Shown: piece by piece, positions 4,962 to 44,389 of the stretch | Layout: the number at the start of each line of letters is the position of its first letter | How positions within the stretch are numbered: the stretch's first letter is position 1 | Source of the DNA: Acidobacteriota bacterium | GTDB lineage: Bacteria > Acidobacteriota > Terriglobia > Acidiferrales > UBA7541 | DNA: 64,000 bases | Assembly (NCBI GenBank): GCA_003225295.1 | Contig: QHYZ01000058.1 | Location: forward strand, 62,001-126,000 | Direction: 5' to 3' | Notes under the pieces: model-generated | What the model was told of the DNA's origin: nothing | Databases searched by the model: none | Seen by the model: only the letters and a program-made list of their open reading frames with translations | Position numbers and translations under genes: made by a program

Positions 4962-5135
4962 CTATTCCTCAGCGATTTTCGCTTCTTCCGGCAGCATGAC
5001 GGGAATTTCATCGCGCACCGGATAGACCCGGCGGCAGGAGACGCACTTCAGGCCTGACCCGTCGCTCAGCAGTTCCACGCGCGTTTTGCAAACCGGACAA
5101 ACCAGAATATCGATAGCATACTTGGGGATGGCCAT
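4962..5135 (-). CDS. Trm112-like / UPF0434 zinc-ribbon protein
   Basis: 57 residues. It has CPVCKTRVELLSDG followed by LKCVSCRRVYPVRDEIPVML, the four-cysteine zinc ribbon and hydrophobic tail of the Trm112/YcaR family. Members often sit next to lipid A/LPS core genes, as here with the heptose kinase. The start is taken at the ATG at 5135 (MAIPKYAIDIL), which has GGAGAGA upstream. An in-frame extension to 5210 would add an uncharacteristic N-terminus. Family members elsewhere activate methyltransferases or accompany LpxK; its partner here is not known. Confidence 0.85.
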   Translation of the reverse strand: MAIPKYAIDILVCPVCKTRVELLSDGSGLKCVSCRRVYPVRDEIPVMLPEEAKIAEE

Positions 5136-5353
5136 GGGTCTCTCCGTCCGGCATTCCAGCGTTCGATGGTGTGAATTGGCACTGTACCAAACGCCGTCGC
5201 GCAGGAGCAACTACGCGCGATCAGGCCATGCGCTCGGCCGATGAAGATATCGCGGCGGTGACTCCCGGGACGCGCTGACGCGTAATCGCCTTGACCCTGC
5301 ACTAGACCGGGCGTAGCGTCTTCTTATCGCCTGCGGAAAGCCGGACTCACAAG

Positions 5354-6079
5354 ATGAACCTTCCTCTGAAACTCGCTGTGCCGAATGGACCGTTCCCCGC
5401 GCTCCAAAAATTCTCCGTGGTAACTGCACGCACCCCCAGTTTTGGGCACTATCAAAAGATGTTTTGCGGCCTGCTGGCGATGACCTGGCCGCTCGCGGCA
5501 GCATTCTCCCAATCGCCTTCCTCCCCGCAGCACTCCTCTTCGTCTTGGCAACAATCACCGTCGCAACAATCATCGGCCCAGGCTCAGCCCGCGGCCCCCG
5601 GCCAGCCGCCGCAAAAAGAAGACTCGCTCGCAGAGGCGGCGCGCAAAGCCAAAGCGAAGAAGCCAACGGCCGCGAAGGGTAAGGTGTACACCGAAGATGA
5701 TTTGTCCGGGATGAAGGGCTCCGGCGTATCCGTTGTGGGGGAGGCCCCCAAGAAGGGTACGCAGCGGGCGCGGCCAACGGACCCGAATGGAGATGGGGGA
5801 GAGAATAACGAAGAATACTGGCGTGGGCGCGCGCAGGAGATTCTGGGCCAAATCGCCGCCGCGGACGAGGCCATGGCGAGAATGAAGGACGACATCAAGA
5901 AGTACGGAAACGGCGGTTTTGACGTGACCACGGGGATGAAAGACAACATCGCCTACATCAATGACAGGAACGGCCAGTTGAAAGATTTGGAGAAGCGCAA
6001 AGTGGATCTGCAAAAGCAGCTGGACGAACTGCAAGACGAAGGTCGCAAAGCGGGGGCTCCGGCGTCCTGGTTCCGGTGA
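5354..6079 (+). CDS. Secreted Gln/Pro-rich coiled-coil protein of unknown function
   Basis: 241 residues from the first ATG. The internal ATG at 5459 (MFCGLLAMTWPLAAAFSQ) would give a more typical signal peptide, so the real start is uncertain. After a low-complexity Ser/Gln/Pro stretch comes the segment KEDSLAEAARKAKAKK and then VYTEDDL, an arrangement I associate with many acidobacterial secreted proteins. The C-terminal third (about 155-230) is charged and heptad-like (AQEILGQIAAADEAMARM and QLKDLEKRKVDLQKQLDEL), predicted to be a coiled coil. No enzyme motif is seen. Possible periplasmic scaffold. Confidence 0.7.
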   Translation: MNLPLKLAVPNGPFPALQKFSVVTARTPSFGHYQKMFCGLLAMTWPLAAAFSQSPSSPQHSSSSWQQSPSQQSSAQAQPAAPGQPPQKEDSLAEAARKAKAKKPTAAKGKVYTEDDLSGMKGSGVSVVGEAPKKGTQRARPTDPNGDGGENNEEYWRGRAQEILGQIAAADEAMARMKDDIKKYGNGGFDVTTGMKDNIAYINDRNGQLKDLEKRKVDLQKQLDELQDEGRKAGAPASWFR

Positions 6080-38893: not shown

Positions 38894-39283
38894 CTAGCCC
38901 ACGGAGGCGCGGAAGGTCTTGGCGCACTCGGCGCAGGGACAGATGTTGCGGAGATGGTCGTAGCTGTAGATGCCAGTAGAGTGGCCGTCGGTGAAGCTGA
39001 TTTGAATGGCATAATTACCCACTTGCGTGGCGGTCTGGGCGCGCGGTTTGGGCTTGAACATGGGCAGCGCGGGAGAGGACTTGAATGCCGAGGCTACCTC
39101 GCCGAGCGACTGCTTCTTCTCTCTGGCGTCGTTGCAGGTGGCGCAGGGACATTCCTCCCGCAAGTAGGCAAACTCGTAGTGGCTGGTGTGGCCGTCGGCC
39201 CAGGTGACATCCACACCCGTGCCGCTAGAAACATGAATCTTGAGGCTGGTTGGTTTTTTTCGCGGGTCCAGAGGAGTGGGCAT
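38894..39283 (-). CDS. DUF971 family protein, last gene of the FTR1 iron operon
   Basis: 129 residues. The two halves carry similar motifs: VTWADGHTSHYEFAYLREECPCATC, cited as DGHTSHYEFAYLR and ECPCATC, and ISFTDGHSTGIYSYDHLRNICPCAEC, cited as DGHSTGIYSYDHLR and ICPCAEC. DUF971 is related to the N-terminal metal-binding part of gamma-butyrobetaine hydroxylase and is often found in iron-sulfur contexts. The double CPC-x2-C suggests two metal sites or one shared site. It lies 15 bp after the ATPase-repressor fusion. Function not established; iron handling is inferred from the operon. Confidence 0.85.
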   Translation of the reverse strand: MPTPLDPRKKPTSLKIHVSSGTGVDVTWADGHTSHYEFAYLREECPCATCNDAREKKQSLGEVASAFKSSPALPMFKPKPRAQTATQVGNYAIQISFTDGHSTGIYSYDHLRNICPCAECAKTFRASVG

Positions 39284-39298
39284 GGTTTGGATGTGCCA

Positions 39299-40504
39299 TT
39301 AGCCCTTGGATTTGCCGTTGCAGCATTCGCCTGGCGGAATAGGATTCCCGTGCGGGCAGGTCTTGGGGTGTCCGAGGAATGTGCAAATGCGCTGGTCCAG
39401 CTCGGGGCTGATGATGTGTTCGAACTTGCAGGCTTGCGTATGGGCCTCGGAATCGTCGATCGAAAAAGTGTCCTTGAACAGGCGCTCGGCCAGGCGGTGA
39501 CGCCGGACAACGTCGCGCGCGCGCTGGCTGCCCATGAGGGTGAGCTGCACTTCCCCGTTTTGCATTTCCACTAAGCGCAGATCGGACATGCGCGAAAGAA
39601 CTCGCGCGGCCGGCTCGTCAGTTACCACTGGCAGCCGCCCCGATGGGCCAGTGGCGTGGAGGCGCTCCGCTTGAGCCGGTTTCCCTTCCTCCCCGCAAGT
39701 CCAGATTTGTTCCAGGAGATGATCGAAGCGAATTTCGTCGTCGGTGGAAATAGGAGTGCAGCAGTCCCGGGTGTCGGCCAGAGGGCAAGCCAGCGGATGG
39801 CCTGGACCGTGCTGTGCGGTGTCGAAGTGCAGGTGGCCGTGAGCAAGCTCGATGCGGCGGTCCGCTTGACGCGCGATGTCCGGGTCGTGCGTCACCATCA
39901 GGATGGTATGGCCGGCATTGTGCAGTTCACGGAAAATCTGGATGACCATCGTTTCGTTGGCCTCGTCGAGATTTCCAGTGGGCTCGTCGGCGAGAATGAT
40001 CTTCGGCTGATTGATCAGCGCGCGCGCAATGGCAACGCGCTGCTGTTCGCCACCGGAAAGCTGCGCGGGGAGATGCGTCAGCCGCTCGCCGAGGCCCACG
40101 CGCTGCAGCGCTTCTTCAGCTTGCGTTTCGTCGGTGACACTATGGAAATACTGTGCGAGCATCACGTTTTCAAGCGCTGTAAGATACGGCACGAGATGGA
40201 ATTGCTGGAAGACGAAGCCGACTTTTTCCGCGCGGTAACGCACCATCTGGCTCTCGCTAAGTTTCGAAAGATCGACGCCGTCAACGACCACATGGCCCGA
40301 AGTGAGTGTGTCCAGGCCGCCGAGAATGTTGATAAGCGTAGTTTTTCCCGAGCCGGAGGGCCCCATGAGCGCCACCCACTCGCCGGTGTTCACTGCGAGG
40401 CTAACGCCGCCGAGCGCGCGCAGCGTGCCGTACTGCTTGATCAAATTCTCGATGACCACTTGCTTGGCCGCAATTAGCGGCGGTGCGGGAGCGATGGAAC
40501 TCAC
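39299..40504 (-). CDS. ABC transporter ATPase fused to a DtxR/IdeR-type iron repressor domain
   Basis: 401 residues. Residues 1-228 are a MacB/LolD-class ATPase: Walker A GPSGSGKTT (48-56), signature LSGGEQQR (149-156), Walker B IILADEP (169-175), His206. A Cys-containing linker (C240, C248, C249) leads to residues about 255-395, a DtxR-family region. It comprises a winged-helix-like part (HLLEQIWTCGEEG to LVEMQNGEVQLTLMG) and the metal-binding dimerisation part RRHRLAERLFK, EAHTQACKFEH, HPKTCPHGNPIP. His336, Glu340, His355, Cys359, Glu362 and His363 align with DtxR His79, Glu83, His98, Cys102, Glu105 and His106; Met10 appears as His262. It overlaps the upstream permease by ATGA. It probably powers the two FtsX permeases and senses iron in the same chain. 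Confidence 0.9.
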   Translation of the reverse strand: MSSIAPAPPLIAAKQVVIENLIKQYGTLRALGGVSLAVNTGEWVALMGPSGSGKTTLINILGGLDTLTSGHVVVDGVDLSKLSESQMVRYRAEKVGFVFQQFHLVPYLTALENVMLAQYFHSVTDETQAEEALQRVGLGERLTHLPAQLSGGEQQRVAIARALINQPKIILADEPTGNLDEANETMVIQIFRELHNAGHTILMVTHDPDIARQADRRIELAHGHLHFDTAQHGPGHPLACPLADTRDCCTPISTDDEIRFDHLLEQIWTCGEEGKPAQAERLHATGPSGRLPVVTDEPAARVLSRMSDLRLVEMQNGEVQLTLMGSQRARDVVRRHRLAERLFKDTFSIDDSEAHTQACKFEHIISPELDQRICTFLGHPKTCPHGNPIPPGECCNGKSKG

Positions 40505-41694
40505 GCTTCACCCCTGAAAACCGATGCCGGGCGGATGCTGGCCAGCCGCCGCAGCGGATACGCGCTGAGGATCGCCACCATGATGGTCAACGCCACAGCT
40601 ACAGGATACACAATCAGCCGCGGCCGTGCCGCCACGCCAAAGACCGCTTTGCCCAATCCGACGGATAGAAAAATCCCCGCCGCCGCGCCAATCATTCCTC
40701 CGGCCAGGCCAAGCAGCGCCGCCTCCGCGAGAAAAAGCCGCAGCACGCGTCGCATCGAGCCACCGATGGCCTTCATCAAGCCGACATCCATCTTCCGTTC
40801 CATCGCCACGTTGGTCATCGCCGCCATCACGCACAGCCCGCTGAGCACCAGCACGATCGCCACTGTGGCCGTCAGCACCCCGCTGATGCGCTTGTATATC
40901 TTTGCTTCCCCTTCCGTGAACTGCCGAACAGGGCGGATCTCGGCATCCGGGAGTGCGCTTCCGAGTGCCGCGATGTATCGATTGACTGACTCCCCGGTGC
41001 CATGAAAGCTAACTTGAACGAGACTCAGACGGCCATGGGTTGCGGTCAGACTTTCAGCCTCCTGTAGGTCCACGAACAGCTGATTGTCCTCGGAACCTCC
41101 TGAACTGATGACCGCACTCACGAAGCAGGATGTGCGATCCACATTTGCCTCGTGATGTAACGCCACGCTATCCCCAGCCTGAACATGGAGTGATGCGGCG
41201 ACACTTGCGCCCAGCATGCACTCCGTCTCTGAAAAAAGAGCGGAGGTAGGCGCGCCGACGCGCTCAAATCGCCAACTAGACCCCATTCGCTGCAAGTCTC
41301 CGAAGCTGGTCCCGGCGATTACCACCGTCGCAGCGGCAGCGTTTTTCCCACTTTGCGGTGCCGCCTTAGCGAGTCCGTACAGAAAAGGCACCACATCTAC
41401 TGGCTGTGCTTCGAATCGCTTCGGAATGCGCTCGATGATCGAACTGTCCAAGGTTGGAGGAGAAGTTTCAGTGTCCATTCGCTTAGGGGCCACGATGATG
41501 TTGGGACCAAACGCGCGAAACTCAGTGGTAAGGCGATGCTGGGCGTCGACTTGGAGATTGAGGAGAGCGGCGGTCACTGCGGCGCCTGCGCCGAGCGCCA
41601 GCAGGATGATGAAAAGGCGGCCGCGGTTGGCGCCGAGAAGGCGGCGGATGATCCGCCAGAACATGGCTCTATTGGTTGCCTGGCCTGGCATCAT
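40501..41694 (-). CDS. FtsX/MacB-type ABC permease, second copy, iron operon
   Basis: 397 residues. One N-terminal transmembrane helix (LFIILLALGAGAAVTAALL), a large extracytoplasmic MacB-PCD domain, then three helices at the C-terminus (TATVAIVLVLSGLCVMAAMTNVA, AALLGLAGGMIGAAAGIFLS, LIVYPVAVALTIMVAILSAYPLR). MERKMDVGLMKAIGGSMRRVL is the FtsX cytoplasmic loop. It starts as ATGA over the stop of the first permease gene and ends as ATGA into the ATPase. With its partner it forms a heterodimer, as in the Campylobacter FTR1-P19 locus, where two FtsX proteins serve iron uptake. Confidence 0.9.
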   Translation of the reverse strand: MMPGQATNRAMFWRIIRRLLGANRGRLFIILLALGAGAAVTAALLNLQVDAQHRLTTEFRAFGPNIIVAPKRMDTETSPPTLDSSIIERIPKRFEAQPVDVVPFLYGLAKAAPQSGKNAAAATVVIAGTSFGDLQRMGSSWRFERVGAPTSALFSETECMLGASVAASLHVQAGDSVALHHEANVDRTSCFVSAVISSGGSEDNQLFVDLQEAESLTATHGRLSLVQVSFHGTGESVNRYIAALGSALPDAEIRPVRQFTEGEAKIYKRISGVLTATVAIVLVLSGLCVMAAMTNVAMERKMDVGLMKAIGGSMRRVLRLFLAEAALLGLAGGMIGAAAGIFLSVGLGKAVFGVAARPRLIVYPVAVALTIMVAILSAYPLRRLASIRPASVFRGEA

Positions 41695-43043
41695 TCGCCT
41701 CGCAGAATCGGTGCCGGCTCGTACCTTGAGGCACGGCGCAGCGGAAGGGCGCTGCCAAGAATCGTGACGCCGCCAGCGAGTGCAATAATCACAAAAAAGA
41801 CCATGAGCGAAGGCTCCGGTGCGGCTCCAAAGATTCTTTCGCCGAGAAGGCGTGCCAGAATAATCCCGATGGCGTAACCGGCTCCCCCGCCTACGAAGGC
41901 GAGCAACAGTTGTTCAGCCGCAAGTAGGAAGCCGACCGTTCCGGAGCCTGCGCCGAGCGCTTTCATCAAGCCGATCTCCGTCCGCCGCTCGATCACCGAA
42001 GCTGCCGAAGACGCTCCCACAGCCAGCGCCGCCGCAAGCAGGGCCGCTCCGGTGACCAGCCATAGCAGCGTTTGAACGCGCCTGAGGATTTGCCCCTCTC
42101 CTTCGGCAACGCGGCGAATCACGCGCACGTCGGTTCCCGGCAATTCCTGCTGAATTTGAAACGCAATCGAGGAAATGTACGGCGTGCAGAACCACCGGTC
42201 GTACTCGACAGGTGTAAACGTCTTGGGGTCGCGTTTCGCAAACGCATCTTCCGGCTTGGTCAGCGCGCTTACATATAGCTTGCGGTACTGTCCGGGCTGG
42301 TTGGCGAGTTGTTGCGCAACTCGGAGAGGAACAATTACCGCGTCATCCTCAAGCCCTCCGCTATCTAGAATGCCCACGGCCTTGAGGAACAGCGGTGGTG
42401 CGGAAGGTCCCCGATCGATGACCAGATTGTCACCGACGGGCCAACCTGGCGGAATCCCACCGTTGAGGCTGGCCTCCTTCTGGCGGGCTAAGTTCTTGCC
42501 GACGACGCATTCCTCAGCATCGTCCTTGAACCATCGGCCTTTCAGGATATGCCACCAGGGATTGGTTTTTTCTAAACCCGTCTCGAAGTAAGCGCCGTCC
42601 TCTAGGTGGAGTGCATGATCCGCCCATACGCCTATGGCCAGAAGATCGGGCCAAGAATTGCGATTGGGCGGCCAACTTCGTCTATCGTCGCGGAAGCGCA
42701 GCATCGCTTTCACTGGTAATTCCAAGACCGGTGCAAAGCCCACGATATTGTTGTGCCAGAAGATGGTCTTAAGCTTAGGAAGGTCGGTTTCAGGGAGATA
42801 CGCGCCGGCATTGACGGGACGATAGTCCACGCCGCCGATTTCGAGCGGCAGCGAATCAGCCTGCGGCGTGACCAACAGATTTGCACCCAGGCTGCGGAAT
42901 TCCTTCGCTAGCCGGTCTCCCACATCCAGCGATACGCTTAGCGTCGCCGTGGCCACTCCCATGCCGAGCGCCAGCGCCGCCCCGGTAAGGAGCTTGTGGC
43001 GTGGTCGGCGTCCAAAAGAGTCGGCAACGATTCGCAGGAACAT
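41691..43043 (-). CDS. FtsX/MacB-type ABC permease, first copy, iron operon
   Basis: 450 residues with the same layout as its neighbour: helix near residues 18-38 (LLTGAALALGMGVATATLSVS), an extracytoplasmic domain of about 290 residues, then three C-terminal helices (LLWLVTGAALLAAALAVGASSAAS, LLLAFVGGGAGYAIGIILARLLG, LMVFFVIIALAGGVTILGSALPLRR), cited in part. IERRTEIGLMKALGAGSGTVGFLL is the conserved loop. The periplasmic part contains NNIVGFAPVLELPVKAMLRF. It starts 45 bp after the FTR1 stop. Transport of an iron species or an envelope substrate is inferred from the operon, not shown. Confidence 0.9.
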   Translation of the reverse strand: MFLRIVADSFGRRPRHKLLTGAALALGMGVATATLSVSLDVGDRLAKEFRSLGANLLVTPQADSLPLEIGGVDYRPVNAGAYLPETDLPKLKTIFWHNNIVGFAPVLELPVKAMLRFRDDRRSWPPNRNSWPDLLAIGVWADHALHLEDGAYFETGLEKTNPWWHILKGRWFKDDAEECVVGKNLARQKEASLNGGIPPGWPVGDNLVIDRGPSAPPLFLKAVGILDSGGLEDDAVIVPLRVAQQLANQPGQYRKLYVSALTKPEDAFAKRDPKTFTPVEYDRWFCTPYISSIAFQIQQELPGTDVRVIRRVAEGEGQILRRVQTLLWLVTGAALLAAALAVGASSAASVIERRTEIGLMKALGAGSGTVGFLLAAEQLLLAFVGGGAGYAIGIILARLLGERIFGAAPEPSLMVFFVIIALAGGVTILGSALPLRRASRYEPAPILRGE

Positions 43044-43088: not shown

Positions 43089-44351
43089 CTATTGAGGAAT
43101 CTCCTTGGCAGCTATCGTCAACGCCGAAATATCAATCACCAGGTCTCCGCCATCCAAGTGCGAGGGCACGCCGATCGGGTTGCAACCCCCCTGATCGCCA
43201 ATCGACGGAATGTAAATGGCCGAAGCACAATGCCGGCAAATGACGTTCTGTCCATCCTGCCGGTAGCCTTCCGCGCCACAGATGCGGCAGGCATCCAGCG
43301 CCACTCCCCATCCGTTGGGCTTCTTAATGATCATGAATCGCAGCGACTGCCCACCCGCATTTACGGTGAAAAGATGCAGGCTTCCATCCTGAACTTCGCC
43401 GACCGGCAGGCGCACGATATTTCCCGCAGCATCAATGGGCTGCGCTGCCGGCGGCGCCGAGTTTGCCCGCGCATAGATGAAATCCGCCGTCAACACCAGA
43501 ATCACCGTGAGAGAGGCCACTGCCGCCGCCATCATCCAACGCCGCTGCCGCCGGTTCTGCGATTCCAACAACCGCTTTTCCGCATCGTTCACCGCTCCCC
43601 GAGCGTTCTTGTCATGCGCGGCGGCCTGCCATTCCCTCAGGATCAGCAACGTCGCCGCGCCAAAAATAAAGACAAAAAAGAACAGTTCATTGCGGACAAT
43701 GGGCCCCAGAATGGCCATCTCCACCTTGCTCGAAGGCAGCCAGCGCGCCTCGCTCAATTCATGTATCCCGGTGAGTGCCAGTTGAAACGCCACCAGCATC
43801 AGAATGACGCTGGTGGCCGCGAAAAAGCGGTGCAACGGCACGCGCAAAGTGCCCTTAAAGAAGAACAGCCCAACCGCCACGGCGGCCGCGATCCCCACAA
43901 TCGTTCCGATCCAGGTCTGCAACCCCTCGCTAGAAAGCTCCACGGCGCGCAGAATCAGCGCCAGCTCCGCCCCCTCGCGCAGGACCATCAGGAAAACAAA
44001 GAGGAAAATGCCCCACCCCGCCGCACTCCCGGCGCGCTCGGCATAAGCCTCCACCTTCTGCTCGATCTCTTCTTTCAGGTGACGCGCAACTCGGTTCATC
44101 CATACGATCATCGTAATGACGAACACCGAGGCGATCAGCAGCATCAGCCCCTCAAACCCGTCTTCGCTGATGCGCCAGCGTTCCAGGGCCACGGCCACGC
44201 CCAGGCTGAGCGCCGCCGCCGCCGCTACGCCGTACCACACGAAACGCACCAGGCCCCCGCGGCCGGTGCGGGAAAGATAGACGAGAATAATGCCGACGAC
44301 CAGAGAAGCTTCAACGCCTTCACGAAGTGCGATGAGAAAAGCCGAGAGCAC
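43089..44351 (-). CDS. FTR1 iron permease fused to DUF2318 metal-binding domain
   Basis: 420 residues from GTG 44351, with GGAG five bases upstream. Residues 1-245 are the seven-helix FTR1/EfeU permease with both iron motifs, REGVE (10-14) and REGAE (125-129), and E-x-x-E elements such as ERWRISEDGFEG. A helix at about 273-293 tethers residues 300-420, a DUF2318 domain: CRICG (355-359), CRHC (372-375) and GDQGGCNPIGVP. In Campylobacter the FTR1 and DUF2318 proteins are separate. It is the first gene of the operon. It would take up ferrous or oxidised iron across the cytoplasmic membrane. Confidence 0.93.
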   Translation of the reverse strand: MLSAFLIALREGVEASLVVGIILVYLSRTGRGGLVRFVWYGVAAAAALSLGVAVALERWRISEDGFEGLMLLIASVFVITMIVWMNRVARHLKEEIEQKVEAYAERAGSAAGWGIFLFVFLMVLREGAELALILRAVELSSEGLQTWIGTIVGIAAAVAVGLFFFKGTLRVPLHRFFAATSVILMLVAFQLALTGIHELSEARWLPSSKVEMAILGPIVRNELFFFVFIFGAATLLILREWQAAAHDKNARGAVNDAEKRLLESQNRRQRRWMMAAAVASLTVILVLTADFIYARANSAPPAAQPIDAAGNIVRLPVGEVQDGSLHLFTVNAGGQSLRFMIIKKPNGWGVALDACRICGAEGYRQDGQNVICRHCASAIYIPSIGDQGGCNPIGVPSHLDGGDLVIDISALTIAAKEIPQ

Positions 44352-44389
44352 AAAAACTCCAGTTGTTAGTAATTTGCAACTACCAATTC

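Follow-up and report, generated by a model that had tools for sequence, protein, structure and literature searches.

An ABC transporter ATPase fused to a DtxR-like domain in Acidobacteriota: a candidate iron sensor that seems to have given up DNA recognition

Introduction

Bacterial iron uptake is usually explained by transcriptional control. What, then, is a domain of the DtxR repressor fold doing at the end of a transporter's ATPase? This question is raised by one gene in a stretch of 64,000 nucleotides from the genome of an Acidobacteriota bacterium (contig QHYZ01000058.1, positions 62,001 to 126,000; the whole stretch is called the window below). An earlier note, made from the letters of the window, had described a single reading frame joining an ABC ATPase to a complete DtxR-type domain, and had proposed either that iron acts directly on the transporter's motor or that the ATPase doubles as the repressor of its own operon. 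Other transporter fusions of DtxR domains exist, for example to metal ABC permeases. For a fusion to an ABC ATPase, no description was found in the open-licence literature (PMC4531530, in its available part, concerns other proteins); domain-architecture databases may already list it.

The fused gene and its operon

The frame, its parts and its neighbours in the window are as follows.

39299..40504, minus strand: ABC ATPase and DtxR-like fusion (one frame, 40504..39299; GTG start; 401 aa)
39818..40462, minus strand: ATPase domain of the MacB/LolD class, residues about 15-229 (PF00005, 8.4e-37; LolD_lipo_ex; MacB/LolD structures)
39743..39817, minus strand: variable linker (residues about 230-254); only a subgroup has Cys240/248/249
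39515..39742, minus strand: part resembling a winged helix, residues about 255-330, with degenerate DNA-binding helices (no PF01325 match; charge; model pLDDT and helices)
39317..39514, minus strand: domain for metal binding and dimerisation, residues about 331-396, with a CPHGNPIPPGxCC tail (PF02742; column counts; VIA Z 18.6 to DtxR)
38894..39283, minus strand: DUF971/GBBH-like_N protein (PF06155, 2.2e-26)
40501..41694, minus strand: FtsX/MacB_PCD permease 2, with a 4-base overlap with each neighbour (PF02687, 1.2e-10; PF12704, 2.8e-9)
41691..43043, minus strand: FtsX/MacB_PCD permease 1 (PF02687, 1.1e-15; PF12704, 7.8e-12)
43089..44351, minus strand: FTR1 iron permease with a C-terminal FtrD-like (DUF2318) domain (PF03239, 1.4e-41; PF10080, 4.3e-24)
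44361..44381, minus strand: operator-like dyad AGTTG-N11-CAACT upstream of FTR1 (pattern scan of upstream regions)

The fusion is the fourth gene, following the FTR1/FtrD-like gene and the two permease genes in the same direction, and the DUF971/GBBH-like_N gene lies 15 bases downstream of it, with a homologue after the ATPase in many congeners. PF02742 is matched in this genome (about 96% complete) by the fusion and one canonical DtxR only, one Fur-family protein is encoded separately from the fusion, and FeoB_C has no match.

In the ATPase half, ABC_tran (PF00005) covers residues 32-176, and Walker A (GPSGSGKTT), the signature (LSGGEQQR) and Walker B (IILADEPTGNLD) can all be read, intact as the earlier note had stated. 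MacB/LolD/YbbA-type ATPases are the closest in profile and structure comparison, and LolD_lipo_ex is matched at 1.4e-64, yet under the curated cut-off of that model. The ABC_tran match, the three motifs and the FtsX/MacB_PCD partners place the protein in the MacB/LolD class.

For the C-terminal half, Pfam gives Fe_dep_repr_C (PF02742) at residues 324-390 (8.6e-28; 96.6 bits against a cut-off of 27), and residues 226-401 match DtxR/IdeR chains of the PDB with a best E of 3e-18, so that the DtxR assignment, which the earlier note had made dependent on such a match, holds. A fold search with the whole protein returned ATPases only, and the C-terminal domain was then folded by itself; the two models were built from few sequences (19 and 18). 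The AlphaFold2 model of the last 180 residues, built from 18 sequences (mean pLDDT 82), has the two-domain DtxR fold, which spans residues 253-395. It resembles DtxR 1p92 with a VIA Z of 18.6 (rmsd 1.9, 134 residues, aligned range 1-139), and IdeR with a Foldseek E of 2.1e-9.

A comparable gene order is described for the 1649-1656 locus of C. jejuni, which reads FTR1-P19-DUF2318-permease-permease-ATPase-thioredoxins; deletions of 1651-1656 and of p19 gave comparable phenotypes, and what the permeases and ATPase transport is given there as unknown (PMC6083913, in the sections on this locus). The window operon has FTR1, DUF2318, two permeases and the ATPase in that same order. It differs in that FTR1 and DUF2318 form one protein, in that no member of the periplasmic P19 family (PF10634, 0 matches) was found in the genome (96% complete), and in its ATPase, which carries the DtxR-like domain, whereas those sections of PMC6083913 mention no sensor domain; no thioredoxin partners are found among the five operon genes. 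SifABCDE of Bifidobacterium breve, likened here by description and not by alignment, shares the two FtsX-like permeases and the ATPase, and mutants of the Bifidobacterium system grow poorly under ferrous-iron chelation (PMC5449479). In the available part of that paper, again, no sensor domain is mentioned, unlike the situation in the window ATPase.

Recurrence of the fusion and selection on its parts

The earlier note had also considered that the fusion might have arisen from a lost stop codon. The same domain pair, sought across Acidobacteriota as that note had proposed, was collected in 73 frames, 63 of them distinct after repeats were merged (window included), and the order FTR1, permease, permease, ATPase is found in all 27 fused loci for which the flanks were read. 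Comparison with seven congeners gives a dN/dS of 0.015-0.044 for the metal domain and 0.079-0.135 for the winged-helix-like part, and six comparisons give 0.047-0.064 for the ATPase domain; purifying selection is stronger on the metal domain than on the ATPase. Since many species share the fusion, and purifying selection acts on each of its halves, a lost stop codon or an assembly artefact can be rejected, and the joining of an ABC ATPase to a DtxR-fold domain is confirmed as real.

Parts lost and parts kept in the DtxR-like domain

The word "complete" in the earlier note has to be given up. The Pfam search that it had recommended recovers ABC_tran and Fe_dep_repr_C but not Fe_dep_repress (PF01325), which the window protein does not match at any E up to 1. 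FeoA/SH3 (PF04023) is likewise unmatched there, the frame stopping 6 residues past the CC motif; a C-terminal SH3/FeoA domain is usual in DtxR/IdeR repressors and missing from some members. PF01325 is matched in all four canonical paralogues tested (8e-11 to 1e-13), below the cut-off in two of five stand-alone relatives tested (0.0027 and 0.026; these relatives are described below), and weakly in 5 of 19 fusions (best E 0.041). A canonical helix-turn-helix resembles VTPPAVTAALKRMTRDG, which is not kept in the fused and stand-alone rows displayed in the alignment. The mean net charge of this element is +2.2 in canonical proteins (n=21), -1.5 in stand-alone relatives (n=25) and 0.0 in fusions (n=63; range -4 to +3), and the region expected to form its second helix is modelled with little order (pLDDT about 66-68, residues 61-80 of the C-terminal piece). 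Judged by sequence, the DtxR-like domain of the fusion is not a complete repressor and its DNA-binding signature is lost; the DtxR-derived module seems to have given up DNA recognition. Both domains of the DtxR shape, and with them the winged helix, are retained in the predicted fold, and some DNA binding could therefore still occur.

The metal site has fared differently. All the residues that the earlier note had named (His262, His336, Glu340, His355, Cys359, Glu362, His363, Cys240, Cys248 and Cys249) are where it had placed them. In the DtxR numbering that we take to apply to these positions, Cys359, Glu362 and His363 correspond to Cys102, Glu105 and His106 and are present in 63/63 fusions, whereas all 21 canonical paralogues have Glu in place of Cys102. 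The replacement of Met10 by His262 in the window was also read correctly; across the fusions this position is His in 28, Glu in 33 and Asp in 2, all able to bind metal. Glu83 (Glu340) is kept in 63 fusions and His79 (His336) in 56, and the position of His98 (His355) holds His in 25, Glu in 33, Asp in 2 and another residue in 3, so that the ancillary-site residues His355 and His336 are not invariant among the 63. The Fe-type ligands are retained in the fused domain, which would probably bind metal.

Five further residues, Cys374, Cys383, His385, Cys394 and Cys395, are invariant in 63/63 fusions, and each occurs in 24-26 of the 26 stand-alone relatives; only two of the five, Cys383 and His385, are also present in canonical paralogues (21/21 each). 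The tail CPHG-x3-P-x-G-x-CC occurs in all 73 fused frames collected. The linker cysteines 240, 248 and 249, to which the earlier note had drawn attention, are present in the window and in only 13 of 42 aligned fusions, so that a metal site common to the fusions is not to be sought there; the extra cysteines that do not vary are 374, 383, 394 and 395. A His/Cys-rich insert in the wing, HPPxxHxHKPFxNPCH, is also seen in 13/42 fusions (L007-L014, L016-L018, L023 and L042) and is a possible further metal site. Compared with DtxR/IdeR, then, the fused domain shares the predicted two-domain fold and ligands of the Cys102/Glu105/His106 type. It differs in the absence of a DNA-binding signature and of SH3/FeoA, in His, Glu or Asp for Met10, and in the CPHGxPIPPGxCC tail and the attached ATPase.

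Stand-alone relatives beside feoB

Fusions and canonical DtxRs were not all that a phylum-wide search returned: a class of stand-alone proteins with intermediate scores has a degenerate winged helix, the same metal domain as the fusions and a CC tail; a FeoA domain was found in 5/5 tested. By sequence comparison these proteins, mostly encoded just downstream of feoB, are the nearest relatives of the fused domain, a link absent from the account of the earlier note. A FeoB-like frame lies just upstream on the same strand in 37 of 45 stand-alone loci, at distances from overlapping to 243 bases (22/24 loci in Acidobacteriota, 15/21 in two other phyla); one of these neighbours was confirmed by Pfam and the rest were assigned by similarity to it. 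Two of the eight loci without such a neighbour (L285 and L289) end at contig edges too close to tell. The loci were picked by score against the fused domain and are not a random sample of DtxR-like proteins; the tail pattern fits 42 of the 45. Among 249 sampled genomes of Pseudomonadota (the phylum of L050), 18 have the stand-alone form and none a fusion at E <= 1e-22, and all four genomes from the phylum of L074 have the stand-alone form. These relatives are like FeoA/FeoC in that part of the protein resembles a winged helix, cysteines are conserved, a FeoA domain is present and the gene mostly lies beside feoB; unlike FeoA/FeoC, they also carry the DtxR metal/dimerisation domain.

Some stand-alone relatives have other neighbours. 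In L276 (1667-6585) a stand-alone relative (5054-5728) lies among magnetosome genes, with a MamD above its NCBIfam cut-off upstream and MamQ-like and MamS-like genes that score below theirs; L278 and L281 resemble this locus by eye. A ZorA-like gene (Zorya anti-phage) follows the stand-alone relative in L288 (5574-7886). In further loci, read by eye, DtxR-like genes stand in tandem (L083, L085, L086, L087 and L107), where the second gene seems to encode a membrane segment at the N-terminus and a long C-terminal region, and an NRAMP-like frame follows a DtxR-like gene (L084).

Distribution of fused and unfused operons

With the permease-1 protein as query, the operon was found in 52 of 396 sampled Acidobacteriota genomes. 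Of these, 22 have the fusion, 16 have an ATPase without the domain, read directly, and 3 end at a contig edge before the ATPase; the remaining 11 were not fetched, and 8 of them belong to genus g37, in which each of the 13 members fetched has an unfused ATPase. The domain is an accessory, since some related operons do without it. No DtxR-like frame indicative of a split-gene ancestor was found in the stretch at any unfused operon locus fetched. Four genomes with unfused operons (L019-L022) contain, at a cut-off of 1e-6, DtxR-like proteins only of canonical score (E 1e-13 to 1e-17), and two others (G105 and G385) have a stand-alone relative elsewhere in the genome.

A quick ATPase tree of 81 Acidobacteriota rows (61 fused, 20 unfused) has at least 6 changes between the fused and unfused states, a count that alone cannot separate gain from loss. 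Such interchange is expected of an accessory regulator. In another ATPase tree, which still contained a truncated copy of the window gene (L175_U) and L024 twice, L020 and L021, both unfused, sit on starred branches inside groups of fused rows. In the domain tree, 40 fused domains (thinned from the 63) form one group among 97 rows with a support of 69/97, not starred; a first tree had a stand-alone clade inside the fusions, and the re-cut alignment gave the one fused group. A single origin of the fusion is consistent with the domain tree, which neither contradicts nor proves it. Given the nesting of unfused rows, the state changes and the one fused group, the simplest, if unproven, history is a single fusion event with several later losses.

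Two observations concern other ATPases of this kind. L239 (122-1135) is an unfused ATPase of the same operon type with another Cys/His tail (CPNCGMNLFKKHEH), perhaps another metal-binding appendix. L024 and L025, from Enterococcus, have a homologous ATPase and a permease-2-like gene, and their ATPases group with those of the Acidobacteriota operons on a long branch.

Control of the transporter or of its genes

The fusion is most likely a DNA-blind, DtxR-derived iron sensor that gates the ATPase of an FTR1-type ferrous-iron uptake system, and we regard this reading as rather probable. With the DNA-reading part seemingly lost, the iron of the cell may switch the transporter directly and not its genes. 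Rising cytosolic Fe2+ would load the Cys/Glu/His site of the C-terminal module, a DtxR-type dimer across two ATPase subunits would alter closure of the ATPase, and the likeliest outcome would be inhibition of ATP hydrolysis and of iron uptake, a feedback comparable to that of methionine on MetN and molybdate on ModC. Inhibition rather than activation is suggested by homeostatic logic, the sign being unreadable from sequence, and "feedback by transported substrate" is an analogy, since FtsX/MacB-type permeases may carry no iron.

There are precedents for such a scheme. C-terminal substrate-binding domains that hold back ABC ATPases are established for MetN and ModC (PMC10710835, in part), and FbpC, the ATPase of an iron ABC transporter, is described with a regulatory domain bearing a histidine cluster (PMC2896483, in part). 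Likened by description, the window protein also has its regulatory domain C-terminal to the ATPase and likely paired across the dimer; unlike those of MetN, ModC and FbpC, this domain has the DtxR fold. Its position and ligand residues would fit an ABC importer of the transinhibiting type. The feoB-linked relatives would exert the same control, as separate proteins, on the FeoB GTPase: in a natural fusion, the GTP-bound state of FeoB is reported to be stabilised by a FeoA domain (PMC8980893, in the part available), and a sensor with such a domain, encoded next to feoB, could therefore have FeoB as its target.

The other proposal of the earlier note amounts to a bifunctional autorepressor, in which the iron-loaded fusion leaves the membrane complex, binds the dyad at FTR1 and shuts the operon, as trigger enzymes do. 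The dyad just upstream of the window FTR1, the winged helix in the predicted DtxR fold and the net charge of up to +3 in some fused winged helices speak for it. With start codons placed by alignment, dyads were found upstream of 15/25 fused operons, the window (which has one) being excluded, versus 4/19 known unfused operons (L019, L020, L021 and L235); three loci ending before the ATPase (L236, L237 and L241), all without a dyad, are excluded from the 19. An autorepressor would predict this excess too, but it is weighed lightly because 13 of the 15 dyad-less unfused operons come from one genus and four unfused operons keep the dyad. The shuffle control (6/9,400) is not independent, the patterns having been written after the upstream regions were inspected. 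The persistence of dyads in those four operons, the unmatched PF01325, the missing recognition-helix motif, the lost basic charge, the same degeneration in the stand-alone relatives, and a separate Fur-family protein and canonical DtxR in the genome all make the autorepressor improbable, and iron acting directly on the motor, which the earlier note had offered as well, is the better of its two readings. The Fur-family protein of the genome could be the binder of the dyad. At the FTR1 promoter, dyads of the form AGTTG...CAACT are seen in the window, L003, L004, L019, L020, L021 and L042, and of the form TTGAAA...TTTCAA in L007, L008, L011, L012, L014, L016-L018, L023, L163, L166, L171 and L235; the TTGAAA-type box and the dyads of these operons presumably resemble a Fur box.

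A different role would be that of an iron chaperone or redox relay, in which the cluster of Cys374, 383, 394, 395 and His385 takes iron or an Fe-S cluster from FTR1/FtrD and passes it on or senses oxygen, gating of the ATPase being secondary. The invariance of these five residues agrees with such a role, as does the oxygen sensing reported for the FeoC cluster (PMC10710835, in part). The canonical Fe-type DtxR ligands are invariant too, however, which points to reversible Fe2+ sensing, and the related operons that keep the transporter without the domain argue against an obligatory relay, so that we consider this role unlikely, if less so than autorepression. Least probable of all is that the domain is a mere dimerisation or assembly clamp with a structural metal. 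PF02742 is indeed a metal-binding and dimerisation domain and ABC ATPases work as dimers, but unfused orthologues are maintained without it, and a clamp has no need for invariant DtxR-type ligands plus five more residues.

Implications

Under the preferred reading, that of a sensor gating the ATPase, a repressor fold would have been reused as a post-translational sensor on a transporter, in one fused and one stand-alone form. A wider proposal can be made tentatively, at slightly less than even chances. The family with the CPHGxPIPxGxCC tail and degenerate winged helix, which profiles place with DtxR/MntR repressors, may consist of non-transcriptional iron sensors whose targets are ferrous-iron transporters, which they would bind and gate: as a partner of FeoB in several phyla, in a magnetosome cluster, and, in Acidobacteriota, as a fusion with the FTR1 system's ABC motor; no description of a non-transcriptional role for the feoB-linked family was found in the open-licence literature. 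Genes that resemble DtxR-type repressors and lie next to feoB may thus not regulate transcription, and the reading makes it possible to test concretely how FeoB is switched off, and likewise the FTR1-ABC systems, of which little is understood.
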